From the NCBI RefSeq assembly GCF_002272135.1, contig NZ_NPBF01000025.1, forward strand, positions 62,001 through 126,000: DNA of 64,000 nt. The letters are read 5' to 3'. The notes under the pieces are model-generated. The model was not told where the DNA came from, did not search any database, and worked only from the letters and a program-made list of their open reading frames with translations. The stretch comes from Virgibacillus sp. 7505 (GTDB lineage: Bacteria > Bacillota > Bacilli > Bacillales > Amphibacillaceae). Of the stretch, positions 8,881-19,449 are shown in pieces (the first letter of the stretch is position 1; each line of letters opens with the position of its first letter). A program made the translations under genes and the position numbers.

Positions 8881-9753
8881 ATGAGCAAAATCAGAAAGCG
8901 TAACCGAAGTAAGTTATTCATTTTGTTACGAGGACTGTTCGTCATCCTCGGAGGATTCATCGCAGCATACGGCTTGGAAACCGTCCTGATCCCAAACAAC
9001 GTATCAGACGGAGGCGTCACTGGTATCAGTATCGTCATTTCTCAACTTGCCGGTTTGCCGCTAGGTGCACTAATCGCTATTATCAACCTTCCGTTTGTAT
9101 GGTTGGGTTATAAACAGATAGGGAAAAGCTTCGCGATTTATTCCATTATCGGAATCGCGTCATTATCAATAGGTACGGTTCTCATGCATCATACTCCAGC
9201 AATTATCGAAGGAGACACTTTGCTCGTCACCGTTGTCGGAGGTATTATCCTAGGTTTAGGTATGGGTCTTGCATTGCGTAATGGCGGAGCAGTAGACGGC
9301 ATTGATATGCTGGCAGTTCTTCTATCACGTAAACTACCATTTGGAACAAGTGATTTGATCTTATTCCTTAATATGTTTGTCTTCATCTTTGTTTCCACTG
9401 TATTTGGTCTGACGGGAGCCATTCTCTCAGCAATCGCCTACTTTATCGCATCCAAAGTCATCCACATTGTAGAAGAAGGTTTAAGCGGTTCGAAAACCTT
9501 CAAGATCATTACAACCGAGCCGAAGTTAATGGTGGAAACCATTCGTGACCGGCTTGGACGAAGCGCTACCTATAAGGAAGCTTACGGCGGATATACACAT
9601 GAGAAATTCATGGAAATCACTTGTGTCATTAACCGTCTAGAGGAAAGTAAGCTGAAAGAAATCATCAATGATATTGATGATGGAGCTTTTGTTACGATTT
9701 ATGATGTAGCGGAAGTAAAGGGTGGTACCTTTAGGAAGAGTGATATTCACTAA
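8881..9753 (+). CDS. yitT: YitT family membrane protein (DUF161 + DUF2179)
   Basis: 290 residues. About five membrane helices fill residues 15-195, with the family signature of an early helix followed by NNVSDGGVTGISI. The C-terminal 80 residues form the soluble DUF2179 domain (KTFKIITTEPKLMVETIRDRLGRSATYKEAYGGYT). Bacillaceae have several paralogues (YitT, YqfU, YpjC, YvjA), so the symbol marks the family, not strict orthology. Function is unknown; a transport role is often suggested. GAGG precedes the ATG. Confidence 0.85.
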   Translation: MSKIRKRNRSKLFILLRGLFVILGGFIAAYGLETVLIPNNVSDGGVTGISIVISQLAGLPLGALIAIINLPFVWLGYKQIGKSFAIYSIIGIASLSIGTVLMHHTPAIIEGDTLLVTVVGGIILGLGMGLALRNGGAVDGIDMLAVLLSRKLPFGTSDLILFLNMFVFIFVSTVFGLTGAILSAIAYFIASKVIHIVEEGLSGSKTFKIITTEPKLMVETIRDRLGRSATYKEAYGGYTHEKFMEITCVINRLEESKLKEIINDIDDGAFVTIYDVAEVKGGTFRKSDIH

Positions 9754-9777
9754 GGTTCTAGAATGTAATCAGTTTTT

Positions 9778-9810
9778 AAAGCGTCAAACAGTCTAGTTTG
9801 GCGCTTTTTA
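9778..9810. terminator. Rho-independent terminator after yitT
   Basis: AAAGCGTCAAAC and GTTTGGCGCTTT form a stem with one G-T pair, followed by TTTTTAT. It lies between convergent genes and the reverse strand also shows a short T-run, so it may be bidirectional. Confidence 0.85.
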
Positions 9811-9854
9811 TATGTATAGGTTAACTCCTTAAGTAGAGATGAAAGAAAAGCCTT

Positions 9855-10502
9855 TTACGATAATCCAAATTGTTGTTTTATTATCTTAACATTATCATGA
9901 ATAGAGAAACTACCATCTACGTTTAATGTCTGAAGACCCATATCTTCTGCATCTCTTATAATCTTCAGAGCAAATCCATTATCCCTCTTCATCCAATTAG
10001 AAAAAGCTAAATCAGGATTTTCATACTGATCAAGTATCCCATGAATCCACTCTCTATTCTTATAATGCTTTATCTGAAATTCTGGTGTCGGAACCATCCA
10101 AATTGCATGGTTCAAGTCAGTAAGAAGTGGAGCTACCTTATGTGGCAGCAGTGCTGCTCCTTCCGCAATAATAGGTGTTGTTTTAGGTCGTGATAACAAG
10201 TCCTCCAGTATCAGACTATTCTGCTCCTCATACACACGAACTACATCTTCAATTTGCTCCTTAATAGATAAAGAACAAAACTGTGTAGACCAGACCTGAT
10301 TCCATGTCAGGTCTTTTATTTTGTACATATTTGGGTGCTGATCAGGTGTACTGCGGCACATATGGTCATCATAGCAATCATCGCATTTATAATAGGTAAA
10401 TCCATATTCAGCGGCCAGCTTTCGGGCAATGGTTGTTTTACCGGCACACGGAGAGCCGCCTATCCAATAGATATGTGAGAGTTCTTGTGCGAGATTAACC
10501 AA
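9855..10502 (-). CDS. P-loop kinase-like ATPase of unknown function
   Basis: About 215 residues. A Walker A motif GGSPCAGKTT near the N-terminus is followed by KLAAEYGF, as in nucleoside, shikimate and adenylylsulfate kinases. YKCDDCYDDHMC just after it is cysteine- and aspartate-rich and may bind metal or substrate. The later part (IIAEGAALLP, then KNREWIHGILDQYEN) fits a small-molecule kinase with a lid. The substrate is not recognisable. The TTG at 10502 is preferred because AAGGTGG lies nine bases upstream; a GTG at 10514 overlaps that site. It stands alone on the minus strand. Confidence 0.6.
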   Translation of the reverse strand: MVNLAQELSHIYWIGGSPCAGKTTIARKLAAEYGFTYYKCDDCYDDHMCRSTPDQHPNMYKIKDLTWNQVWSTQFCSLSIKEQIEDVVRVYEEQNSLILEDLLSRPKTTPIIAEGAALLPHKVAPLLTDLNHAIWMVPTPEFQIKHYKNREWIHGILDQYENPDLAFSNWMKRDNGFALKIIRDAEDMGLQTLNVDGSFSIHDNVKIIKQQFGLS

Positions 10503-10575
10503 CGGAATACCCACCTTTTCGATACTTTAATGAGGATTCATTATAGCTTAATTCGAGAAGTTGTATCTAATGGTT

Positions 10576-10605
10576 ACACTTTGTCACTTCAGCTTAACAC
10601 TTTGT
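10576..10605 (+). promoter_or_regulatory. Direct repeats ACACTTTGT upstream of rutA-like gene
   Basis: ACACTTTGT occurs at 10576-10584 and again at 10597-10605, 21 bp apart, so on the same face of the helix. A possible -10 (TATACA) lies at 10631-10636. The repeats end just upstream of where the -35 would lie. This is the layout of an activator site. The PucR-type regulator at the other end of the cluster is the obvious candidate, by inference only. Confidence 0.45.
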
Positions 10606-10678
10606 AATCTCCTTTTATTTTCTGAATAATTATACAATTTGATTAGGTTAAATACACAACACAAAAGGAGCGATACAA

Positions 10679-11743
10679 ATGGACTTCGGAATTTTCTTGC
10701 CAATAGCGAATAATGGGTGGATCATGTCGAATAACTCACCGCAGTATATGCCAACGTTTGAATTGAATAAGGATATTGCGCTGCGGGCGGAGAATATGGG
10801 GTTGGATTTTGTGTTGTCGATGGTGAAATATCGTGGGTATGGCGGAAAGACGGAGCATTGGGATTATGCGATGGAGTCTTTCAATTTGATGGCAGGGCTG
10901 GCAGCTGTCACAGACAGGATCGGGATTTACGCATCGGTGCAGCCGCTCACATATAATCCGGCAATGGCAGCTCGGATGGCGGCGACAATTGATGATATCA
11001 GTGACGGACGCTTCGGCTTGAATGTCGTGGCGGGCTGGAATAAGTATGAGTATTCCCAAATGGGATTATGGCCTGGTGATGAGTTTTATGGCGATCGCTA
11101 TGAATACGCGGATGAGTGGCTGACGGTTGTGAAGCAGCTGTGGGATAAAGGGAGACTGACACATAAGGGCAAATATTTCGGGCTGGAGGATTGCATGTGT
11201 CAGCCGACACCTAAAACAAAGCCGAATCCGCCGATTGTTTGTGCAGGTATGTCAGATAAAGGCTTGGAATTCACGATTAAGCATGGTGATATCAATTTCG
11301 TTGCAGGTGACTTTGACCGCATTGCGGAGCTTAGTGCCAAGGGTAAAGAAATGGCGGCAAGTATGAACAAGTCGATCAAGACATATGCCGTGTATACAAT
11401 CATTTCTGCTGAAACGGATGAAGAGGCGGAAGATATCTACTTGAACTTTATTGAAGGAACGGATAAAGGCGGGTTCGATGGACTGCAAAACGCGCGTGAT
11501 AATGATAAAACAGGCTCGACAATGGAGCTTCTAGGGGAGATTTTCATCGTACCAACGCTTGTCGGATCACCGCAGACGATAGCTGCGCAGATTGAAAAAA
11601 TCGAGAAGGAAACGATGATAGATGGCTTGCTGTTCACATTCCCTGACTTTGTGACAGATATGAATTTCTTCGAAAGTGACATCGTTCCATTGCTGGATGC
11701 GAAAGGACTTCGGAATACAGTCGTAAAAGAAATCATCGGGTAA
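10679..11743 (+). CDS. rutA: RutA-like flavin-dependent pyrimidine monooxygenase
   Basis: 354 residues, luciferase-like fold. Long stretches match the RutA family of uracil-opening monooxygenases: PIANNGW near the N-terminus, PQYMPTFELNK, RGYGGKTEHWD, ARMAATIDDISDGRFG, GLWPGD, and ICAGxSD-like VCAGMSDKG. RutA uses FMNH2 and oxygen to cleave the pyrimidine ring between N3 and C4, giving ureidoacrylate peracid. AAAAGGAG lies eight bases before the ATG. Downstream genes supply an FMN reductase and amidohydrolases, as expected for such a route. The classical rutC, D, E, F and G are absent, so the substrate may be uracil or a related N-heterocycle. Confidence 0.8.
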   Translation: MDFGIFLPIANNGWIMSNNSPQYMPTFELNKDIALRAENMGLDFVLSMVKYRGYGGKTEHWDYAMESFNLMAGLAAVTDRIGIYASVQPLTYNPAMAARMAATIDDISDGRFGLNVVAGWNKYEYSQMGLWPGDEFYGDRYEYADEWLTVVKQLWDKGRLTHKGKYFGLEDCMCQPTPKTKPNPPIVCAGMSDKGLEFTIKHGDINFVAGDFDRIAELSAKGKEMAASMNKSIKTYAVYTIISAETDEEAEDIYLNFIEGTDKGGFDGLQNARDNDKTGSTMELLGEIFIVPTLVGSPQTIAAQIEKIEKETMIDGLLFTFPDFVTDMNFFESDIVPLLDAKGLRNTVVKEIIG

Positions 11744-11756
11744 GGAGGAAGATCTA

Positions 11757-12656
11757 GTGAAGGAAAGCATGGTGATTGCCGGGCTGCAGAATGGTGCGTA
11801 TGCAGGAGATGTTGAAACGAATTTAGAAAGGATAGTGGCAGAATGCAGACGGGTTATTGCGGCAGATAAGCCGGATTTGCTTGTTTGTGCTGAGCTGATG
11901 ACGGCCCCGTATTTTGCGGCAGTCACAACGCCGGATGAGACTTTCTTCGACTTTGCTGAGCCTATGGATGGACCTACAGTGACAGCTATGGTCGCTTTGG
12001 CTGAGGAGACAGGAACACATCTGATCGGAACAGTTTTCGAGAGAGCAGAGGAAGGTGAACACACGAATTATTACAATACAGCGTTTGTCTGTTCCCCAAC
12101 AAGAGGACTGATCGGCAGCTATCGAAAAGTCCATGTGCCGAAAGTCGATGATGCGACGATGAAGACGGATGAGAAATATTATTTTGAACAGTACGGCGGC
12201 GGAGGAAATGCGTTCCCAACGTTCCCCCTGGACAATGGCTGGAAGATTGGCATCCTCATTTGCTTTGACCGGTCGTTCCCAGAAGCGTGGCGTTCCTTGC
12301 GTGTGCAGGATGTGGATGCGATCGTCGTGCCGACAGCGACTTACGGCTTCCGCAAGGATCTGTATGTGGCAGAGCTGCGAGTGAGGGCCTTGGAAAATAA
12401 TCTGTTTGTCATGGGTGTGAATAAAGCAGGAGCAGAACAGCTGCAGGGCGAGGAGGTGCTCCGCCATCACTTCGGACAGTCTTGCATTCTCAATCCATTC
12501 GGGGACGTGATGGCAATAGCCGAAGATGGAGAGTGGCAGCATGTATCTGCAGAGATCAGTAAAGCTACACTTGTTGAATCGCGTAATCGTGTCGACTGGC
12601 TGGCCAACCGGAAACTGGAAGTCTATGAACGCTATCAAACGGAAGTAGTAAACTAA
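11757..12656 (+). CDS. Carbon-nitrogen hydrolase (nitrilase superfamily), N-carbamoyl amidohydrolase-like
   Basis: 299 residues from a GTG with AGGAGG eight bases upstream. The nitrilase triad is visible: Glu46 (CAELMTAPYF), Lys124 (SYRKVHVPK) and Cys169 (LICFDRSFPE). The flanking sequences resemble beta-ureidopropionase and N-carbamoyl-amino-acid amidohydrolases, which release CO2 and ammonia from carbamoyl groups. Placed 13 nt after the RutA-like gene, it could process a ureido intermediate. It is not part of the E. coli rut operon. The exact substrate is an inference. Confidence 0.75.
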   Translation: MKESMVIAGLQNGAYAGDVETNLERIVAECRRVIAADKPDLLVCAELMTAPYFAAVTTPDETFFDFAEPMDGPTVTAMVALAEETGTHLIGTVFERAEEGEHTNYYNTAFVCSPTRGLIGSYRKVHVPKVDDATMKTDEKYYFEQYGGGGNAFPTFPLDNGWKIGILICFDRSFPEAWRSLRVQDVDAIVVPTATYGFRKDLYVAELRVRALENNLFVMGVNKAGAEQLQGEEVLRHHFGQSCILNPFGDVMAIAEDGEWQHVSAEISKATLVESRNRVDWLANRKLEVYERYQTEVVN

Positions 12657-12675
12657 CCAAATGGAGGGCGATAAG

Positions 12676-13218
12676 ATGACGAAAGCAGTTGTGATTACAG
12701 GCAGTCCGAAGAAAACATCCCGATTGAATGGACCCGTGGAGTATGTGATTGCTGATTTGGAAAGCAAAGGCTGTGATGTATCACATGTTGTAGTTGCAGA
12801 TTTGCCGGCGGAGGATCTGCTGTATGCCAACTTCACGAGTGATGCGATTATCCAGGCTACACAGCAGGTGAAGAATGCAGATGTCGTTGTAGTGGCAACG
12901 CAGGTGTATAAAGCTTCCTATACTGGTGTATTGAAATGCTTCCTGGATCTGATTCCGGAAAGAGGGTTGGCTGGCAAAAAGGTGCTGCCGCTAGCAATGG
13001 GCGGAACGACAGCGCATTTGCTGATGCTGGAATTTTCTCTGAAGCCGGTGCTATCTGTATTGGGTGCCAATGCAATTGAACAGGGCGTATTCATTCAGGA
13101 TAAGCAAGTAGTCCGAGACGTGGACAACAGCTTTGAGATTGGGGAAGACTGCAAGCTAAGACTGGATCAAGCAGTCGAGGGGCTTTTGGAGGGTGTGACG
13201 ATCGAACAGGTTGTATAA
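12676..13218 (+). CDS. NAD(P)H-dependent FMN reductase (SsuE-like)
   Basis: 180 residues from the ATG at 12676. An upstream in-frame ATG at 12661 contains the GGAGGG ribosome site and is unlikely to be used. A flavodoxin-like fold begins VITGSPKKTSRLNG, the phosphate-binding loop for FMN. TQVYKASYTGVLKCFLDLIP is the typical SsuE/azoreductase-family segment. Its likely task is to supply FMNH2 to the RutA-like monooxygenase. Classical rut loci use an unrelated reductase, RutF, so this is a functional replacement. Confidence 0.78.
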   Translation: MTKAVVITGSPKKTSRLNGPVEYVIADLESKGCDVSHVVVADLPAEDLLYANFTSDAIIQATQQVKNADVVVVATQVYKASYTGVLKCFLDLIPERGLAGKKVLPLAMGGTTAHLLMLEFSLKPVLSVLGANAIEQGVFIQDKQVVRDVDNSFEIGEDCKLRLDQAVEGLLEGVTIEQVV

Positions 13219-13257
13219 TCCCTACACTAATATAAATAGAAAAGGTCGGAACGTATC

Positions 13258-13995
13258 ATGATGCTGGCGACGATGTTTGCATTAGGACTGCTGTTGGGCT
13301 TTGCCGGCGGTGGTGGATCTGGATTTGTGCTGGCACTATTGATTAGTGTTTTCCAGATTCCGATTCATACCGCACTCGGCACGAGCACAACAGCCATGAT
13401 TTTCACCGTTATTTCCGGATCGATCAGTCATTTTAAAGAAGGCAATATGCAGCTGAAAACTGGCGCAATGGTCGGAGCATTCGGTGGCGTAGGTGCTTAT
13501 CTGGGTACAAAAGTAGCGGCTCAGCTGCCAGAGACTCCGCTAATTGTCATTTCAGCTCTTCTTTTATTCGTTTCTTCTATCCTGCTGTTTTTCCGTACCA
13601 GGCTCAGCGGCAGTATAAAGGTGGAGAAAGTGTTCAGCAAAAAGCAATATCTGCTGCTGGCGATAGGAGTCGGGGGCAGTACTGGGTTCTTGTCCGGATG
13701 CTTTGGCATCGGGTCGACACCCTTGATTCAGTTGGGATTGATGATCTTTTTCGGGCTAAGTATACAGCAGGCGGCAGCGACAAGCATGTTTGTACTGATC
13801 CCAATTTCATTTCTTGGATCATTCGGTTTTGCTCAAGCTGGGTTTGTCGATATCTCTTTGCTCGTACAAGTGGTCGCTGGTACGATGATAGGCTCGTTCA
13901 TTGGAGCGAAATTCACTCGTCTTGCACCAGTGCAGGTGCTGCGGACAGTTATTATTTTGCTGCCGATCTTCGGCGGTATTCTATTGCTTACATAA
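13258..13995 (+). CDS. TSUP family membrane permease (TauE/SafE)
   Basis: 245 residues with about seven to eight membrane helices arranged as two similar halves: GLLLGFAGGGGSGFV at the start and GVGGSTGFLSGCFGIGS in the middle. TSUP proteins move sulfite, sulfoacetate and other small anions. In this cluster it may import the substrate or export an acidic product. Classical rut loci use RutG, an uracil permease of another family, so the cargo here is an open question. The AAAGGTCGG upstream is a weak ribosome site. Confidence 0.75.
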   Translation: MMLATMFALGLLLGFAGGGGSGFVLALLISVFQIPIHTALGTSTTAMIFTVISGSISHFKEGNMQLKTGAMVGAFGGVGAYLGTKVAAQLPETPLIVISALLLFVSSILLFFRTRLSGSIKVEKVFSKKQYLLLAIGVGGSTGFLSGCFGIGSTPLIQLGLMIFFGLSIQQAAATSMFVLIPISFLGSFGFAQAGFVDISLLVQVVAGTMIGSFIGAKFTRLAPVQVLRTVIILLPIFGGILLLT

Positions 13996-14011
13996 AACAG
14001 GAGGGATGTAT

Positions 14012-14656
14012 ATGGCGGATAAACTGTCAGTCTATCAGCAAGCAGGTTATGGTCAGAAGCAAGTAGGGTTCGGAGAGAAGCCGGCACTTTTACTAGTCGA
14101 TTTTCAGCATGCATTTACGAATAGTGAATATCCGACGGGAAAAAGTCCCCTTATTAAGCAGGCTGTGACTGAAACAGCGGAGCTCCTTGAGTTAGCCCGC
14201 AAGAAGGACATTCCAGTTATCTATACAGTCGTCGGCTACAGGGATGATAAGTGGGATACAGGAAATTGGAAAACAGATATCAGCTGGATTTCTATCGGGT
14301 CACATGCAGCCGAAGTAAGTCCGGAAGTAGAACCAGTTACAGGAGAGCCAATTGTGTTGAAAAAGTATCCATCGGCATTCTTCGGTACAGAGGTGCTGTC
14401 GCTGCTGACGACAAAGCAAGTGGATACCGTCATTGTCACAGGCTGCACGACAAGCGGTTGTGTACGGGCAACGATCATTGACGCGTTTTCCTATGGATTC
14501 AAAACGATTGTGCCGGAGGAGTGTGTCGGAGATCAAGCAAAGGAATCACATGATGCGAATTTGTTTGATGTGGATGCACGATATGCCGATGTGCTGCCGA
14601 AGCAGCAGGTAGTGGATTATTTGACGGCGTTGAAAGCTGCGCCAATAACAACATAA
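14012..14656 (+). CDS. Cysteine hydrolase, isochorismatase superfamily (RutB / maleamate amidohydrolase-like)
   Basis: 214 residues from the ATG after CAGGAGGG. The catalytic triad is Asp30 (LLLVDFQHAF), Lys117 or 118 (VLKKYPSAFFGT) and Cys150 (TGCTTSGCVRAT). The last motif is closer to N-carbamoylsarcosine amidase and maleamate amidohydrolase than to E. coli RutB. It may nonetheless do the RutB step, cleaving the carbamoyl group from a cis-enoic ring-opening product. It closes the operon and is followed by a strong terminator. Confidence 0.78.
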   Translation: MADKLSVYQQAGYGQKQVGFGEKPALLLVDFQHAFTNSEYPTGKSPLIKQAVTETAELLELARKKDIPVIYTVVGYRDDKWDTGNWKTDISWISIGSHAAEVSPEVEPVTGEPIVLKKYPSAFFGTEVLSLLTTKQVDTVIVTGCTTSGCVRATIIDAFSYGFKTIVPEECVGDQAKESHDANLFDVDARYADVLPKQQVVDYLTALKAAPITT

Positions 14657-14659
14657 GTG

Positions 14660-14697
14660 AAAAAACACATCTCTATGAAAGAGATGTGTTTTTTTTA
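14660..14697. terminator. Terminator after the rutA-like operon
   Basis: AAAAAACACATCTCT and AGAGATGTGTTTTTT form a long perfect stem with an ATGAA loop. A-run and T-run on both sides make it work for both this operon and the convergent regulator gene. Confidence 0.92.
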
Positions 14698-14702
14698 TTT
14701 AC

Positions 14703-16139
14703 TTACATACTAATAGGGTAAATATATGCGTTCTTCTGCATGCTGCCCAAATTTTCTACAGCTGTTTTCAGCTCCTGGACACGCAGCTCAAGCGAAAGAG
14801 CGAAGCGTTTTTCAGGATCAGTCAGTAAGCCAACCAATGCCTCTATTCGTTCCAGATGACCATACACAGTTTGTCTGGATACACCTAAATGGTTTGCAAC
14901 TGTAGTAACAGATAAACCGTGATCCAGCAGCAGTCGCAACACTTCCAGCAGCTTGGCTGTATTACGATGTCCGAAAAGCGGGAGAAGCAGTTTTATTTCT
15001 GGAACGGATTCCCTACGTACAAGTGGCAGCAGCATGTGATACGGACTGTTATGGTCTAGAAGGCAGATAGTTTCGGGTGAATTGGAATGCTTGGCAAGCT
15101 CCAGTGCAATCTGTGCTTCCCGTATTTTATCAGCTGGATCTTCAGTCCAGGATGTTTCGGAGCTGATACCAGCCATAAGATCAGGTATAGCTTTGAGAAA
15201 TTTTAATCGTTCTCCTATTTGGTTTGAGTCCGTGGAAAAAAATAGCACATGAGCTCGCTTCTTTCGGATAGAGTAAACAAGATTTTCTCCACAGTCAGCT
15301 TCCAGTTGATCCAGGGAGGAAGTTAAATGTCCAATTCCTTCTTTACTCTCCAGGACGCCTATGGATAGATAGGGATTTTCCTTACAATAAGCTGGTACTT
15401 TCAATGGATATAGAAAATCATCAAGCGCAAGTTGACTTTTGCTGCTTTTATGAGATTGAATGGGTTGGCGTATCCATGGTGAACCTGATAACGAAGTAGA
15501 TTCATATGCATCAAGTGGGTGACGCATGAATTCCTGCGCCCATTTTCTAGTAACCTGTTCTATCTCCATTTGAGAGGACTCCAAGCGGGCCACATGCTCC
15601 AATATTTTTATGATAGAATCTTTCGAATGAAGAAAAACGGAAGGTATCTCTAATTGATCAGCGAGGGTGCAAATAAAGCCGCTGCCAATGATAGCATCAA
15701 TGCCGGCTTGTTTGAGTGATGCAAGCAATGCGGCTGCATCATGCTTGGAGCTGTACGCAAAAAACAAATATTCCCCATCCAGATGCTGTACAACATCCTG
15801 ATAACTCTGCAAATCCTCTCCATAATGAATCACAGCAATGAGCCTGCCAAATTGGCGGGCTTGCAAGGCAGCCTGCAGCACATCGTACCGTGTAATGGGA
15901 ATCTGAAGGATAGGCAGCGCTGATTGATAAACACTTTTATCCAGCATCGTCCAATGTGCTCCGCCAGTAATGATCATCTGCGGCCGGATCGTATGCAGAT
16001 GATCGTTCAAGTAATCCACAACATGACCAAAATGGACATCACGGATTGTCACATCCGGCAATTGCTCTGTATTATCCATAACCTGCTGTACAACATTTGT
16101 CAGCTTCGGATGACTGAGAATCAGGACTTTTGATGGCAC
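14703..16139 (-). CDS. PrpR_N-type sensor with PucR C-terminal HTH, transcriptional regulator
   Basis: 478 residues from the GTG at 16139, chosen because AAGGAG lies eight bases upstream; a longer frame from 16196 would bury that site. Residues 1-195 resemble the PrpR N-terminal ligand-sensing domain (SKVLILSHPKL, then DVLQAALQARQFGRLIAVIHY and GIDAIIGSGF). Residues about 270-410 resemble the GGDEF-like middle region of PucR/CdaR regulators (SIGVLESKEGIGHL, then KIREAQIALELAK). The C-terminus is the PucR helix-turn-helix (LLDHGLSVTTVANHLGVSRQT). It faces the RutA-like operon and is its probable regulator. The domain names rest on motif resemblance. Confidence 0.75.
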   Translation of the reverse strand: MPSKVLILSHPKLTNVVQQVMDNTEQLPDVTIRDVHFGHVVDYLNDHLHTIRPQMIITGGAHWTMLDKSVYQSALPILQIPITRYDVLQAALQARQFGRLIAVIHYGEDLQSYQDVVQHLDGEYLFFAYSSKHDAAALLASLKQAGIDAIIGSGFICTLADQLEIPSVFLHSKDSIIKILEHVARLESSQMEIEQVTRKWAQEFMRHPLDAYESTSLSGSPWIRQPIQSHKSSKSQLALDDFLYPLKVPAYCKENPYLSIGVLESKEGIGHLTSSLDQLEADCGENLVYSIRKKRAHVLFFSTDSNQIGERLKFLKAIPDLMAGISSETSWTEDPADKIREAQIALELAKHSNSPETICLLDHNSPYHMLLPLVRRESVPEIKLLLPLFGHRNTAKLLEVLRLLLDHGLSVTTVANHLGVSRQTVYGHLERIEALVGLLTDPEKRFALSLELRVQELKTAVENLGSMQKNAYIYPISM

Positions 16140-16390
16140 TGCATACACTCCTTCACCTTTGTAGTAGCCGTCTTTAATTTCTAAAAAATATAGCATGTCG
16201 CGAAATGGGTTACAAAGCTTCTGTCATGTTAGTTAACAAGAAAATTTATAGGGATGTAAATAAATAGAAACTTTTGGTAATGAGATTCGTAGTACATCTT
16301 AGATCACGCTTTCCAAATCGGTAAAAAGGGAAGGTTAGCCTGAATGAAAGGAAAGGTGTACATATCACGGATTGCAAAGGAGGAATCACG

Positions 16391-16648
16391 ATGGAGTTTT
16401 GGATTATGATCATTCTTTTCACAGCACTTATTATCGGCATTTCTTTATTCTTTAAAAATAAGAAGCCGCCACTTATGTACATCATTCCTTTTGCTTTTAC
16501 GCTAATAAGTATTGTATTACTGATAGCTAGCTTTACAATTGGCGGTTTCAGTGGAATGGGAATGACAGTTAGCAGCATCGGCCTGTTAATTTCTTCGGCA
16601 GCTGCATTAATTGTTGTTAGTTTCTTTGGTTTTTTAGGGAGCGAATAA
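16391..16648 (+). CDS. Small membrane protein, YesK-like
   Basis: 85 residues, almost entirely hydrophobic with three membrane helices (residues 3-20, 27-49, 57-82) and a central GGFSGMGM turn. Length and layout resemble the YesK-like family of Bacillus. An AAAGGAGG site lies six bases before the ATG. Function is unknown. The broken HTH gene follows 32 nt downstream, and the two may share a transcript. Confidence 0.6.
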   Translation: MEFWIMIILFTALIIGISLFFKNKKPPLMYIIPFAFTLISIVLLIASFTIGGFSGMGMTVSSIGLLISSAAALIVVSFFGFLGSE

Positions 16649-16680
16649 AAGTCTTGTGAAGGAATAAAGGAGTGGATTAC

Positions 16681-16968
16681 ATGGAAATAGATTTCTTTTG
16701 GATTGGACTGGGAATAGCAGTGCTTGGTTATTTCATCGGGGATGGATTGAAGAATTTTTAAAATCCCGGTTCTGGTTTTCAGTTTGAGGAATATCCCACC
16801 TTAATTAAAGAGAAAGATTTGCATACATATTTAAATTTGAGCAAAGCAGAAGTAGCGGACTTACTCAATAAGAATCCTAATGCGCCGAAAGTAGTATTGG
16901 ACGGAACGACATATTATCCTTATAAGCCGTTTATGAAATGGATCACGTCGACAGAGATTTACCAATAA
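16681..16968 (+). pseudogene. Membrane-anchored excisionase-like HTH protein, interrupted by in-frame TAA
   Basis: One frame of 96 codons starts at the ATG (16681, after AAAGGAG) and encodes a membrane helix, IDFFWIGLGIAVLGYFIGDG, then LKNF. It hits TAA at 16759-16761 and continues without a frame change into a soluble domain, with YPTLIKEKDLHTYLNLSK, AEVADLLNK and VVLDGTTYYPYKPFMKW, ending in TAA at 16966-16968. The second part looks like a small excisionase-type DNA-binding module. AAA to TAA at the stop would explain the break. Either a pseudogene, a sequencing error or stop readthrough. The 26-residue peptide alone may still be made. Confidence 0.65.
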
Positions 16969-16990
16969 GCACAGAAGGGAGCACTCTGTA

Positions 16991-17431
16991 ATGGGAATGA
17001 TATTAAGAGCTATTGATGCGGATAACTGGCATGCTTGCGTGAAGCTGACAGTAAGTGAGGAACAGAAACAGAATGTAGCTGAAAATGCGGTGTCGCTTGC
17101 GCAGGCCGCTTATGAGAAGCAGTGGTATCCACATGGTATATATGCGGATGATATGCTAGTTGGTTTTCTGATGTTCGGAACGGATCAGGAAACGAAGCGC
17201 GTGGAACTGTGCCGTTTCATGCTTGACAAGCAGTATCAAGGAAAGGGCTATGGGACAGCTGCACTTGTGACGCTATTCGATCTAATTAAAATCAGATACG
17301 GGCCTATTTCTTTCTATACAAGCATTGTGCCAGATAATCTTGCTGCAAAGAAGATCTATGAAAACGCAGGATTCCGTATGACTGGGGAAATCTTGTGGGA
17401 AGAGCTGGTGATGGTGAAACAGTTGGTATGA
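16991..17431 (+). CDS. GNAT acetyltransferase, spermidine/spermine N-acetyltransferase-like
   Basis: 146 residues with the complete GNAT fold. The acetyl-CoA loop is RFMLDKQYQGKGYGTAALV, and the C-terminal NLAAKKIYENAGFRMTGE is typical. The N-terminus (ILRAIDADNWHACVKLTVSEEQ) is close to the BltD/PaiA-type polyamine acetyltransferases of Bacillus, so polyamines are the likely substrate by resemblance. AGGGAGCAC lies before the ATG. It is monocistronic, followed by a terminator. Confidence 0.75.
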   Translation: MGMILRAIDADNWHACVKLTVSEEQKQNVAENAVSLAQAAYEKQWYPHGIYADDMLVGFLMFGTDQETKRVELCRFMLDKQYQGKGYGTAALVTLFDLIKIRYGPISFYTSIVPDNLAAKKIYENAGFRMTGEILWEELVMVKQLV

Positions 17432-17463
17432 ATACTCTTACAGCGATAATATGTTGGTTTTAA

Positions 17464-17496
17464 ACACAATTCTGTGTAGAGAATTGTGTTTTTTTG
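17464..17496 (+). terminator. Terminator after the acetyltransferase gene
   Basis: ACACAATTCT pairs with AGAATTGTGT around a short loop, followed by seven T. Confidence 0.9.
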
Positions 17497-17598
17497 TATT
17501 GTCATGTGAATTTGAAACAATATCAACTGGGCTTTTGCATTAATTTAACATTTATACTGGACATCATTTAAAAATGGAGTTATGATGATTCCAACACC

Positions 17599-17622
17599 AC
17601 TTGTAATACAAGTATACAAGTA
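17599..17622. promoter_or_regulatory. ACTTGT/ACAAGT dyad, probable GntR operator
   Basis: ACTTGTAATACAAGT (17599-17613) is an inverted repeat with a 3-nt centre, overlapped by a second ACAAGTAT unit (17616-17622). It lies about 45-65 nt before the transketolase start. GntR/FCD repressors bind dyads of this size. The linked regulator at 21831-22526 is the likely partner. Confidence 0.5.
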
Positions 17623-17665
17623 TATGAGTTTACAAGAGGATCACTTAGGAACAGGAGTGTGGCAT

Positions 17666-18502
17666 ATGCAGCAAACAAGTGTTGAACAGTTGAAACAGCA
17701 TGCGATTGAATTACGCAAAACAGCAGTCACGATGGTGTATGAAGCACAATCTGGACACCCGGGAGGTTCCTTGTCGGCTGCGGATGTTATTTCTGCTTTA
17801 TATTTCAGGGAGATGAATGTAGATCCGGCCAATCCGAAATGGGAAGATCGAGATCGATTCGTCTTATCAAAAGGGCATGTTGCCCCAATACAATATGCAG
17901 CTTTAGCGTTGCGAGGCTTTGTTCCAAATGAAAGCGTATACACTTTGCGCCAGTATGGTTCACCTTTCCAAGGTCATCCGGATATGAAAAAATGTCCCGG
18001 AATTGATATATCAACAGGGTCATTAGGCCAAGGCTTATCCTGCGCGGTCGGAATGGCAATTGCAGGGCAGCGTGATGAGAAAGACTATCGTGTATTTGCG
18101 ATGGTAGGTGACGGAGAATGTCAGGAAGGACAGATTTGGGAAGCAATCCAAGCTGCAGTCAAATACAAGCTGGATAACTTGATCGTATTCGTGGATAACA
18201 ACCGTCTGCAAATTGATGGTTTCTGTGAGGACGTTATGCCGCTACTCGATCTGGAAAAGAAATTCGATGCATTCGGTTTTGATACGACACGTATTGATGG
18301 ACACAGCATGGAACAAATCGTAGAGACATTGGATACTTTTGCGAAGCGGAAGAACGGCAAGCCGAAGTGCATTGTCTGCGATACCGTTAAAGGAAAAGGC
18401 GTCTCTTATATGGAGGACCAAGCTGCATGGCATGGTACAGCACCGAACAAAGAAGAATTTGAGTTAGCGATCAAGGAACTAGAAGGAGGCTTGCCAGTAT
18501 GA
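17666..18502 (+). CDS. Transketolase, N-terminal subunit
   Basis: 278 residues, the length of the thiamine-pyrophosphate half of a two-subunit transketolase. GHPGGSLSAADVISALYF and LSKGHVAPIQYAAL are the N-terminal hallmarks. The TPP motif GDGECQEGQIWEA ends in DNN around residue 177. The ATG at 17666 has CAGGAG upstream; a longer frame from 17582 would cover the operator region. It overlaps the C-terminal subunit gene by four bases. Split transketolases often serve special sugars rather than the pentose phosphate pathway (apulose 4-phosphate and sulfofructose are known cases). Confidence 0.88.
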   Translation: MQQTSVEQLKQHAIELRKTAVTMVYEAQSGHPGGSLSAADVISALYFREMNVDPANPKWEDRDRFVLSKGHVAPIQYAALALRGFVPNESVYTLRQYGSPFQGHPDMKKCPGIDISTGSLGQGLSCAVGMAIAGQRDEKDYRVFAMVGDGECQEGQIWEAIQAAVKYKLDNLIVFVDNNRLQIDGFCEDVMPLLDLEKKFDAFGFDTTRIDGHSMEQIVETLDTFAKRKNGKPKCIVCDTVKGKGVSYMEDQAAWHGTAPNKEEFELAIKELEGGLPV

Positions 18503-19449
18503 GTGTGACAAAAAAAGCCGTCGAGAAAAAAGCGACAAGAGCTGCATTTGGAGACGAAATTGTCCGTTTGGGTGAGTCAAATAAAGATATTTATGTCGTG
18601 GATATCGATATCGGGAAATCCTGTAAAACAGATAAATTCATTGAAAAATTCCCGATGCAGCATATCAATGTCGGGATCGCAGAACAGAATGGAGCGGGTA
18701 TCGCAGCTGGGCTTGCGACAACAGGAAAGATTCCTTTCATCAGTACGTACGCGGTATTCGGATCTCTTCGCATGGCAGAGCAAATTCGTCAGGAAGTATG
18801 CTATCCGAACTTGAATGTGAAAATCGCTTGCTCCCACGGTGGTCTGACACCAGGTAATGATGGGGGAAGTCACCAGGCAATCGAGGACATGGGCGTCATG
18901 CGATCCTTCCCGAATATGACGGTCATCATGGGCGCGGATTATCATTCCACTCGCAAATTGATCGCCGAAGCAGCTGCCATGTATGGTCCGGTTTACCTTC
19001 GTTTCACACGGGATGCAGTACCATTGATTTATGACGAAAACGAGACGTTCGAAATCGGCAAAGCAAAACAGCTTCGTGACGGCGAAGATATTGCCATCAT
19101 CGCAAATGGTGATACGGTGCGTCTAGCTATTGAAGCGGCTGAGCAGCTGGAGCAAAATGGTGTTTCCGTCAAGCTGCTTGATATGCATACCATCAAGCCA
19201 CTTGATGTAGAAGCAGTCAAAGATTGCCTGGATATCGGAAGAATCATTACCGTCGAAGATCACAATATCTTGAATGGCCTTGGCAGTGCTGTAGCTGAAG
19301 TTATAGCTGAAGCAGGGAAGGGACAGCTGGCAAGAATCGGTGTGCAAGATAGATTCGGTGAATCTGCACCTTATGAGAAGCTGCTGGAAATCAACGGAAT
19401 CACGGTAGAAAACATAGTAGCAACAGCAAACAAATTACTAACAAACTAA
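18499..19449 (+). CDS. Transketolase, C-terminal subunit
   Basis: 316 residues with the pyrimidine-binding domain (HINVGIAEQNGAGIAAGLA, where the glutamate activates TPP) and a C-terminal transketolase domain (DGEDIAIIANGDTVRLAIEAAE). CSHGGLTPGNDGGSHQ is the substrate-loop region. It forms the active site with the preceding subunit at their interface and is translationally coupled to it (ATGA overlap). Substrate cannot be read from sequence; context suggests a keto sugar or sugar acid made by the SDR encoded next. Confidence 0.88.
   Translation: MSVTKKAVEKKATRAAFGDEIVRLGESNKDIYVVDIDIGKSCKTDKFIEKFPMQHINVGIAEQNGAGIAAGLATTGKIPFISTYAVFGSLRMAEQIRQEVCYPNLNVKIACSHGGLTPGNDGGSHQAIEDMGVMRSFPNMTVIMGADYHSTRKLIAEAAAMYGPVYLRFTRDAVPLIYDENETFEIGKAKQLRDGEDIAIIANGDTVRLAIEAAEQLEQNGVSVKLLDMHTIKPLDVEAVKDCLDIGRIITVEDHNILNGLGSAVAEVIAEAGKGQLARIGVQDRFGESAPYEKLLEINGITVENIVATANKLLTN

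Follow-up and report, generated by a model that had tools for sequence, protein, structure and literature searches.

A Terribacillus gene row combining a RutA-like monooxygenase with non-Rut partner enzymes: a candidate route for nitrogen release from a ring compound

In this work, we analyzed a 64,000-nucleotide stretch of the genome of the soil bacterium Virgibacillus sp. 7505 (contig NZ_NPBF01000025.1; hereafter the window), in which positions 10679-14656 hold an unbroken row of five genes, referred to below as the Terribacillus row. We consider it probable (roughly 0.6) that this row encodes a catabolic, nitrogen-releasing route opened by RutA-type oxygenolytic ring cleavage and continued by non-Rut amide hydrolysis. 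The usual setting for RutA chemistry is the rut operon known from Escherichia coli; the presence of a RutA-like key enzyme beside helpers of other types suggests, as far as sequence can tell, a variant route for obtaining nitrogen from uracil or a similar ring. Counted in favor of this reading were (i) RutA as the top relative of the monooxygenase by both sequence and predicted fold, together with its pocket residues, (ii) the score of the SsuE-type reductase and the N-carbamoyl hydrolases among the relatives of the nitrilase, (iii) purifying selection, a gene order kept in 3/10 genus genomes and short intergenic gaps, and (iv) recurrent gene pairs and an upstream motif in common with a Bacillus metagenome-assembled genome (MAG). 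Counted against it were a shortfall on the RutA equivalog model, the position of the monooxygenase in the tree, the presence of W139 in distant homologues, the column aligned to E292, one amidase more than uracil would need, the occurrence of the amidase pair without a RutA-like gene in another genome (G444) and the lack of a uracil permease in the row.

Organization and putative control of the gene row

The first-pass annotation had described a five-gene cluster with a RutA-like monooxygenase, and this description stood: all named genes are present and open at their places, the quoted RutA motifs occur in the translation and RutA is the top relative. It had passed over a sixth gene within the same interval, a minus-strand regulator with PrpR_N and HTH_30 domains that lies downstream of the row and converges on it. 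The genes run in the order monooxygenase, nitrilase-type hydrolase, SsuE-type FMN reductase, TSUP permease and isochorismatase-fold amidase, with gaps of 13, 4, 39 and 16 bases when the amidase start is taken at 14012 (Table 1). Three starts differ from the listed frames: the reductase frame opens at 12661, with an ATG preceded by GGAGGG at 12676 (in the listed frame, alignment with its Terribacillus relatives begins at residue 5); the amidase frame opens at 13901, with AGGAGGG ahead of the ATG chosen; and the regulator frame, listed from 16196, is here taken from the GTG at 16148, the start retained by the related locus L008.

Table 1 Features of the Terribacillus row and its surroundings (positions within the window).
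Feature	Position	Strand	Basis
Candidate operator TTAACANNTTGTAA, 5' of the row	10594..10607	+	exact match upstream of RutA-like gene
RutA-like group C flavin monooxygenase, 354 aa	10679..11743	+	sequence and predicted fold
Nitrilase-superfamily (CN_hydrolase) amidohydrolase, 299 aa	11757..12656	+	PF00795; E46, K124, C169, R172 invariant
SsuE-type NADPH:FMN reductase	12676..13218	+	TIGR03567
TSUP (TauE/SafE) permease, 245 aa	13258..13995	+	PF01925
Isochorismatase-fold amidase, N-carbamoylsarcosine/maleamate amidase group, 214 aa	14012..14656	+	PF00857
Terminator-like hairpin between convergent row and regulator	14659..14695		stem of 16 pairs
Regulator, PrpR_N sensor domain and PucR-type HTH_30	14703..16148	-	Pfam domains; GTG start kept in L008

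A perfect copy of the motif TTAACANNTTGTAA lies 5' of the RutA-like gene in the window, in L008, in a further related locus (L009) and in the Bacillus MAG (L010). It matches 12 of 106 loci, every one a copy of those four regions, and was not found upstream of the RutA-like gene of another genome, G412. The motif is post hoc, since it was picked by eye from the same four sequences, and 31 of 100 shuffles of the window contained one or more matches when a single mismatch was allowed. A hairpin similar to that of Table 1 separates row and regulator in L008; the hairpin scan returned 4 sites overall versus 4.7 expected from shuffles, so that its stem length and its place are what back it. The PrpR_N/HTH_30 protein would probably control the row in those strains that have it, in contrast to the Rut pathway, whose regulator is RutR.

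The monooxygenase and its relation to RutA

Among solved structures, the best relative of the monooxygenase by sequence is RutA (PDB 5wan; 305.6 bits, E 4.3e-90, residues 1-353). Ordered by E-value, the search with its predicted structure placed RutA entries first (6sgl, TM 0.84, 42% identity), followed by SfnG (TM 0.77, 24%), with MsuD likewise ranking after RutA. It is a full-length homologue of E. coli RutA, 42% identical and with a shared predicted fold, but its reductase partner differs and it stands apart from the true RutA clade. In the tree it falls in a Bacillota clade (support 100), outside the group (support 91) that holds the RutA proteins of E. coli, Moraxella and the Rhizobium locus L080, all from annotated rut operons, along with proteins of Stenomitos, Arthrobacter sp. 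AK-1 and Rhodococcus. On the RutA equivalog model TIGR03612 it scored 368.7 bits against a cut-off of 498.3, about 130 bits short, compared with 700.4 for Moraxella RutA, from an annotated rut cluster, and 409.7 for the Stenomitos protein. E. coli RutA also carries a four-residue insertion after FCFG, which is absent from the monooxygenase and from the Stenomitos and AK-1 proteins.

According to the alignment, the O2-pocket residues L65, N134, V136 and F224 and the si-face residue W139 are retained, and T105 is replaced by S; the roles of these residues are as given in published RutA studies (PMC10005588, PMC7662398, PMC8234197). One of them reports that T105S keeps about 80% of activity and that other tested changes at T105, N134 and V136 abolish it (PMC7662398), and the motif published in another permits T or S at 105 (PMC8234197). 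Serine is also found there in five Caulobacter-type RutA-like proteins of the same alignment. In favor of the RutA reading, five homologues at a greater distance (from Acinetobacter, Paraburkholderia, Cupriavidus, Agrobacterium and Neorhizobium) have S or N in place of W139. This residue is also retained in two Peribacillus proteins and a paralogue from the same genome at 25-31% identity, so that W139 alone is no marker of uracil use. The column of E292, the second si-face residue named for RutA, reads N in a badly aligned loop where other RutA proteins vary too.

The row could instead be an operon for sulfur scavenging, in which an alkanesulfonate or sulfone monooxygenase of the SsuD/SfnG type works with SsuE and a sulfite-exporting TSUP permease. 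The reductase does exceed the SsuE cut-off (TIGR03567, 193.9 versus 164.05 bits), PF01925 is named for sulfite exporters, SfnG and MsuD rank behind RutA by predicted fold, and beside the RutA-like gene and SsuE-related reductase of G412 (67% and 46%) lies an ABC transporter binding protein whose best match is the SsuA subfamily (72.1 of 163.5 bits; NMT1 in Pfam). The monooxygenase, however, stays far under the cut-offs of SsuD (TIGR03565, 101.7 of 518.2 bits) and SfnG (159.1 of 382.95) and by these scores is much nearer RutA; in addition, desulfonation offers no role for two amidases and the Terribacillus row lacks an ABC transporter. We regard this explanation as highly unlikely.

Partner enzymes and candidate substrates

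The proposed first chemistry would resemble that of the Rut pathway (rutABCDEFG), in which a flavin-dependent enzyme, supplied by a separate reductase, splits a ring amide oxygenolytically. Beyond it, the Terribacillus row has the nitrilase, a NicF-type amidase, SsuE and TSUP, and lacks RutB, C, D, E, F and G. The replacement of rut partners proposed in the first-pass annotation was borne out by the reductase score, by Pfam matches for the other three proteins and by the lack of any match to the RutC, D, E, F or G models (E up to 0.001) among eight neighbouring proteins scanned; its list of missing partners had left out RutB, which is missing as well. RutB belongs to the isochorismatase fold, and the amidase of that fold scored 35.6 bits on the RutB model, whose cut-off is 377.95.

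The Glu-Lys-Cys triad of the nitrilase (E46, K124, C169), with R172, is invariant in the five sequences aligned. Many of its nearest solved relatives are N-carbamoyl hydrolases: among the matches listed, the fold search (predicted model of mean pLDDT 68.4) gave D-carbamoylases first, then a Helicobacter pylori CN hydrolase, N-carbamoylputrescine amidases, formamidases and NIT2, and beta-ureidopropionases occur among its sequence matches. The nitrilase has in common with the beta-ureidopropionase/D-carbamoylase/N-carbamoylputrescine amidase group the triad and an Arg three residues past the catalytic Cys, as in 2vhh, but is 17-26% identical in the 50 fold matches listed and reaches no named equivalog cut-off (best TIGR03381, 101.4 of 410.25 bits).

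For the amidase, sequence supports a closer kinship to N-carbamoylsarcosine/maleamate amidases than to RutB, as the first-pass annotation had held, and its motif TTSGCVRAT...HDANLFD narrows this to the maleamate-amidase (NicF) type. The motif test used TTSGCVRA...HEANLFD and an alignment to 3ot4, which we take to be NicF and which the listing names a putative isochorismatase, and to two nicotinate-type plasmid clusters reading STSGCI/VRA. A 1nba-type N-carbamoylsarcosine amidase was rejected, as TAAGCVRHT and WNLYD would be expected there; ATACACVRHT and EWNLFD occur in G475, where the neighbouring genes look like a hydantoinase pair. The amidase is 41-42% identical to five plasmid homologues aligned, but lies outside any nic or hydantoinase cluster, with no NicX, NicD or NicE among the neighbouring proteins scanned, and its placement within the NicF/N-carbamoylsarcosine group has a tree support of 26-55.

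The route would start with RutA-type oxygenolytic ring opening. The nitrilase-type enzyme, replacing RutB, would then take a carbamoyl or amide group off the carboxylated intermediate. In the third and weakest step, the NicF-type amidase might hydrolyse either another amide or a different intermediate, and the carboxylate so formed might be moved by the TSUP permease.

Uracil or thymine is the likeliest single substrate, at somewhat less than even odds; about the same probability falls to all other cyclic imides and lactams combined. A strict uracil/thymine route, to which we give the same slightly-under-even chance, would have the RutA-like enzyme and SsuE produce ureidoacrylate, one of the two amidases act as RutB, 3-aminoacrylate decompose to malonate semialdehyde and housekeeping enzymes finish. 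The retained O2-pocket residues and W139 agree with it, as does the frequency of N-carbamoyl hydrolases among the solved relatives of the nitrilase. In one study, RutC and RutD are reported dispensable for growth of E. coli on uridine and YdfG able to reduce malonate semialdehyde in vitro, in place of RutE (PMC8113886); on that account the missing RutC, D and E are weaker evidence against uracil than they appear, and most missing partners would be unneeded. Also favorable is a locus of the cyanobacterium Stenomitos frigidus. Its RutA-like protein is 51% identical, the nearest named one outside Bacillota among those found, and is encoded next to an aldo/keto-reductase-like gene and a RutB-like one (328.9 bits against a cut-off of 377.95), with no nitrilase beside it among frames of at least 140 aa; if this is a Rut route, Rut function reaches beyond the RutA cut-off. 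Against the uracil route stand the missed cut-off itself and the absent FCFG insertion. Moreover, uracil would need one carbamoyl hydrolase, which leaves one of the two amidases unexplained, and the row holds no uracil permease.

The amidase and nitrilase also occur as a pair in G444, in this case without a RutA-like gene, which likewise speaks against uracil. There they adjoin a CoA-transferase, a MaoC hydratase, a CitE/RipC-like lyase, MmgE/PrpD, a DctP-type binding protein and a sigma-54 regulator carrying a PrpR_N domain, a cluster that looks like C5-dicarboxylate catabolism of the itaconate/mesaconate type. This setting points to half-amides rather than ureidoacrylate. It favors, together with the maleamate-amidase motif and the RutA-like genes found with swapped partners in several bacteria, a cyclic imide that is not a pyrimidine, or another N-heterocycle (e.g. 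a substituted maleimide or glutaconimide), which the RutA-like enzyme would open to a half-amide and the amidase and nitrilase would convert to a dicarboxylate, a reading that we hold tentatively, at rather below even odds. Nevertheless, the Terribacillus row lacks downstream dicarboxylate genes, the RutA-type pocket residues are unchanged, and the conjunction of a PrpR_N regulator with the amidase pair amounts to two cases, L009 being without the regulator at that place. The maleate isomerase/Amdase family PF17645 matched 0/10 genus genomes, a search whose controls were equally silent and which is thus uninformative. An unlikely version is a separate, hitherto undescribed pathway in which a RutA-type N5-peroxide enzyme oxygenolytically opens a non-uracil cyclic imide and a dedicated pair of amidases, related to the G444 pair, turns the half-amide into dicarboxylate and ammonia; substituted maleimide, one such imide, arises naturally when tetrapyrroles are broken down.

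Conservation and significance

The survey of the five-gene set, named beforehand in the first-pass annotation as a test, gave a divided answer: the whole set occurs in the same order in 3/10 genus genomes and is absent from the others, with a decayed remnant in one same-species genome, and beyond the genus only gene pairs were seen together. The RutA-like gene itself is rare (4/159 family genomes). This patchiness would fit genes that were acquired independently, lie together by chance and serve no common pathway, but the constant order and the dN/dS values of 0.02-0.07 among three Terribacillus genomes, indicating strong purifying selection and hence more than chance open frames, argue against it, as do the pairs RutA-like plus nitrilase (Bacillus MAG), RutA-like plus SsuE (G412) and amidase plus nitrilase (G444) in three other genomes; we regard a chance neighbourhood as very unlikely. 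A related association is the pSI-1 LLM locus of Arthrobacter sp. AK-1, where a RutA-like protein (42% identity), a CN hydrolase (25% over 239 residues, nearest model deaminated-glutathione amidase) and an SsuE-related reductase (89.4 bits, below the SsuE cut-off) lie in one row, with a flavin reductase, an FAA hydrolase and a permease in addition.

Altogether, if this Bacillota row keeps RutA oxygen chemistry with a swapped reductase, amidohydrolase, transporter and regulator, ring opening would be a movable module. The enzyme set named is small, two for the first step plus two amidases, and its substrate should be findable by ordinary assays. A non-pyrimidine substrate would make the row a new entry in aerobic N-heterocycle catabolism; uracil would mean a Rut-like route, with a replacement for RutB, for some Bacillota.

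Layout of the row and its conservation in Terribacillus

Five plus-strand genes (the row), encoding in order a RutA-like monooxygenase, a nitrilase-type hydrolase, an SsuE-type FMN reductase, a TSUP permease and an isochorismatase-fold amidase, are followed by one convergent minus-strand regulator of the PrpR_N/HTH_30 type, and the whole is bordered by a kinase-like gene and a GNAT gene. The intergenic gaps in the row measure 13, 4, 39 and 16 bases. The last figure takes the ATG at 14012 as the amidase start; the second becomes 19 bases if the reductase starts at 12676. The last row gene ends at 14656, ahead of a terminator-like hairpin; terminator-like sites numbered 4 in the whole scan and 4.7 in shuffles, and promoter-like sites in 10400-16400 numbered 19 versus 10.6. 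No RNA element was detected across 9700-17600, where all Rfam families scored under threshold. We read the five genes as one predicted operon.

Features bordering the row and following its last gene
Feature	Coordinates	Strand	Remarks
P-loop kinase-like gene	9855-10514	minus	AAA_18 and Zeta_toxin matches, both below their cut-offs
Terminator-like hairpin, 16 pairs	14659-14695		after last row gene; similar hairpin in L008
GNAT gene	16991-17431	plus	far border of row and regulator

The sequence TTAACANNTTGTAA ends 71 bases ahead of the RutA-like start codon in the window and also precedes the RutA-like gene in the Terribacillus loci L008 and L009 and in L010, a locus of a Bacillus MAG (there at 130 bases); it is absent from the stretch of G412, a genome outside the genus. 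With at most one mismatch it has a sole match in the window, 0.41 being expected and at least one match occurring in 31 of 100 shuffles. Because the motif was chosen by eye from the very sequences compared, we regard it as a lead and not as a test.

Within the genus, three of the ten genomes carry the RutA-like gene, at 97-100% identity; the closest named relatives are the proteins of T. saccharophilus DSM 21619 and 7517-1 (97%), and in two of the three genomes, G398 and G399, the RutA-like proteins match the L008 and L009 proteins exactly. The first-pass annotation had expected the five genes to stay together in relatives. This holds for L008 and L009, where the window's order is kept, but outside the genus pairs only were recovered. 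Five flanking genes are 97-99% identical to L008, where the regulator adjoins the row; on these matches and the 97% protein relatives, we take the window's genome to be a Terribacillus. In L009, transposase-like and MFS-like frames named by eye (12161-15523) occupy the place of the regulator, with the row on one side and the GNAT gene on the other. We considered whether the L008 regulator is broken, counting an in-frame stop, and rejected this, since the stop precedes the GTG that opens an intact frame of 480 aa. Across three genomes, dN/dS was 0.020-0.022 for the RutA-like gene, 0.042-0.064 for the nitrilase, 0.021-0.053 for the reductase, 0.040-0.052 for the permease and 0.037-0.066 for the amidase, with three dS values in these comparisons above 1 and therefore rough; a single pair gave 0.145 for the regulator.

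In G402, a genome of the same species, no RutA-like gene was found, the best match being a 29% homologue. There, a fragment matching residues 1-69 of the reductase directly abuts one matching residues 125-214 of the amidase, and we infer from this junction that the row was lost by deletion. In G400, also of the genus, nothing matches 10584-16389, and fragments of the neighbouring kinase gene are present. The kinase-like gene is likewise fragmentary in G402, so that in both genomes it accompanies a lost or absent row; the L008 and L009 copies are no more than 75-80% identical to that of the window. PF17645 had no match in the ten genus genomes, nor in 14 controls. Further along (17582-19449), the window carries a transketolase-like protein split over two adjacent half-genes, then an SDR and an MFS gene, an order also present in loci L048, L049 and L051 and in as much of L047 as was read.

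The RutA-like monooxygenase and its distribution

The kinship with RutA proposed in the first-pass annotation was borne out, as RutA is the top PDB match both by sequence (305.6 bits; next distinct protein 3rao, 137.8) and by fold. A search with the predicted structure (mean pLDDT 80.2, pTM 0.81, 13 sequences) placed five RutA entries first (TM 0.84, 41-42% identity), followed by SfnG (TM 0.77, 24%). Nevertheless, the protein scores 368.7 bits with the RutA equivalog model TIGR03612, whose cut-off of 498.3 is not reached. Two Bacillota relatives score 383.8 and 376.0, the Rhodococcus, Arthrobacter AK-1 and Stenomitos proteins 392.1, 376.2 and 409.7, and RutA of an annotated Moraxella rut cluster 700.4. 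In a tree of 25 proteins, those from Terribacillus, the Bacillus MAG and G412 make up a single clade (support 100) that lies outside the group (support 91) of the Stenomitos, Arthrobacter AK-1, Rhodococcus and RutA proteins. A reading as an alkanesulfonate or sulfone monooxygenase was considered as well and is held unlikely from the family scores.

At the level of residues, K69 and E143, positions which we take to have a role in RutA, are present, as is W139, where five of the remoter homologues have S or N, and two Peribacillus proteins and the own-genome paralogue have W; E292 is not kept, in a loop that aligns badly. The oxygen-pocket residues of RutA, whose roles are described in the available text of PMC10005588, PMC7662398 and PMC8234197, are present in the alignment except that T105 is replaced by S; T105S is reported to keep about 80% of RutA activity (PMC7662398), and the published motif gives position 105 as T/S (PMC8234197). 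The row probably works like RutA, yet its monooxygenase stays under the equivalog cut-off and its gene set does not fit the definition of a Rut operon.

Wider sampling showed the RutA-like gene to be rare outside the genus. It occurs in 4/159 family genomes (E 1e-50), and even samples of the order (1e-60) and phylum (1e-50) returned the window's own genome as the single hit among 397 and 398 genomes, respectively. The family of the Bacillus MAG has it in 2/193, one of these with 32-33% relatives only. At E 1e-30, four of the 159 family genomes have the nitrilase and 14 the amidase, the G402 remnant counted. For the nitrilase at 1e-45, two of 397 order genomes matched, the second through a 40% relative in another context, and a plasmid search at 1e-30 found none.

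Other plasmid line-ups were seen. Acinetobacter and Paraburkholderia plasmids (L025 7116-11610; L026 6666-11559) have in common a further RutA-like system, whose genes encode an MFS protein, a RutA-like protein (with W139 as S), an isochorismatase-type hydrolase, an M20 peptidase/hypothetical protein and a flavin reductase. The Cupriavidus NH9 plasmid (L078 5863-13123) has a RutA-like gene (W139 as S), two reductases, and a RidA protein and alpha/beta hydrolase in a RutC/RutD-like line-up, with ABC genes and a ring-hydroxylating dioxygenase alongside. A Peribacillus plasmid (L024 5992-9607) encodes, in tandem, two luciferase-family monooxygenases distant from RutA, with an ArsC/Spx-family gene after each; genes for CaiB, isopropylmalate dehydratase and HMG-CoA lyase are close by.

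Partner enzymes and recurring pairs

The reductase is SsuE-type by curated model score. In the nitrilase, the Glu-Lys-Cys triad, as described for a Medicago enzyme (PMC4812014, available text), corresponds to E46, K124 and C169, invariant in five aligned sequences. Its solved sequence relatives include beta-ureidopropionase and N-carbamoylputrescine amidase, and a fold search placed D-carbamoylases on top, with a model of mean pLDDT just 68.4. An Arg stands three residues past the catalytic Cys, where in carbamoylases it binds a substrate carboxylate; Drosophila beta-ureidopropionase (2vhh) shares it, whereas N-carbamoylputrescine amidase lacks it. A PDB profile search with five nitrilases gave no match at 1e-25; at 1e-12 it returned 24 sequences, whose functions vary.

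The amidase best matches 26st, named N-carbamoylsarcosine amidohydrolase (157.7 bits), followed by 4l07, 1nba (124.7) and 3ot4 (114.3); RutB reaches 29.4 bits. The kinship suggested earlier with maleamate or N-carbamoylsarcosine amidases is supported. The motif agrees with 26st and with 3ot4, which we take to be NicF, and nearly so with the amidases that two nicotinate-type plasmid clusters encode, but it differs from that of 1nba, so that an N-carbamoylsarcosine amidase of the 1nba type is rejected on the active-site motif. With support of 26-55 at the deciding nodes, the amidase-group tree does not place the Terribacillus enzyme nearer to nicotinate-type or to hydantoinase-linked relatives.

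The pairs outside the genus differ in composition. In the Bacillus MAG locus, a RutA-like gene (73%) precedes a nitrilase (63%) inside which the contig stops. G412 has a RutA-like gene (67%) and an SsuE-type gene (46%), then an ABC transporter with an NMT1-type binding protein, which scores 72.1 of 163.5 bits with the SsuA subfamily model. This locus also encodes a CN hydrolase with 30% identity to that of the window, an aldehyde dehydrogenase whose first half is missing and an AA_synth-family protein; its remaining ABC genes and an IclR-like gene were named by eye. In G444, likewise outside the genus, the amidase (54%) adjoins the nitrilase (54%) with no RutA-like match at 1e-50, which indicates that this pair can travel without RutA.

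The G444 cluster (L100 1973-17474) includes a sigma-54 regulator with a PrpR_N domain, a CitE/RipC-like lyase, a DctP binding protein, MmgE/PrpD, an acyl-CoA dehydrogenase, a family III CoA-transferase and a MaoC hydratase (RipB closest model, 136.7 of 340 bits), together with MFS, other TRAP and EtfBA genes named by eye. It may be a C5-dicarboxylate-like route, apparently fed by amide hydrolysis; none of the scanned neighbours scored at the cut-off of any itaconate or mesaconate equivalog.

Uracil or a cyclic imide as possible substrate

As the first-pass annotation had noticed, RutC to RutG are missing; RutB is absent from the cluster as well. In the proposed route, a flavin N5-peroxide would open the ring, the two amidases would act one after the other, the TSUP permease would serve transport and the PrpR_N/HTH_30 regulator would control the row. 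E. coli on uridine reportedly does not require RutC and RutD, and YdfG can reduce malonate semialdehyde in vitro (PMC8113886, available text); therefore, a uracil route with the row's partners, in which a single amidase takes the part of RutB, is chemically possible. The published uracil route of Mycobacterium smegmatis is, in the available text, reductive. A cyclic-imide route stays nearly as likely, given the one amidase left over, the motif of NicF type and the arrangement in G444.

By titles and abstract openings, in sources without most subscription journals, no such operon was found in print. Searches for Terribacillus with pyrimidine returned nothing related by title, those for a RutA operon in cyanobacteria with pyrimidine or uracil returned none, and the matches listed for cyclic imides concerned chemistry. 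A paper on tetramethylpyrazine, from the literature on pyridine monooxygenases in Arthrobacter, offered nothing that helped with the sequences. That the substrate of the Terribacillus row may not be a pyrimidine is argued most strongly by the amidase-nitrilase pair, which occurs without RutA in G444 and has a PrpR_N regulator nearby in two settings.
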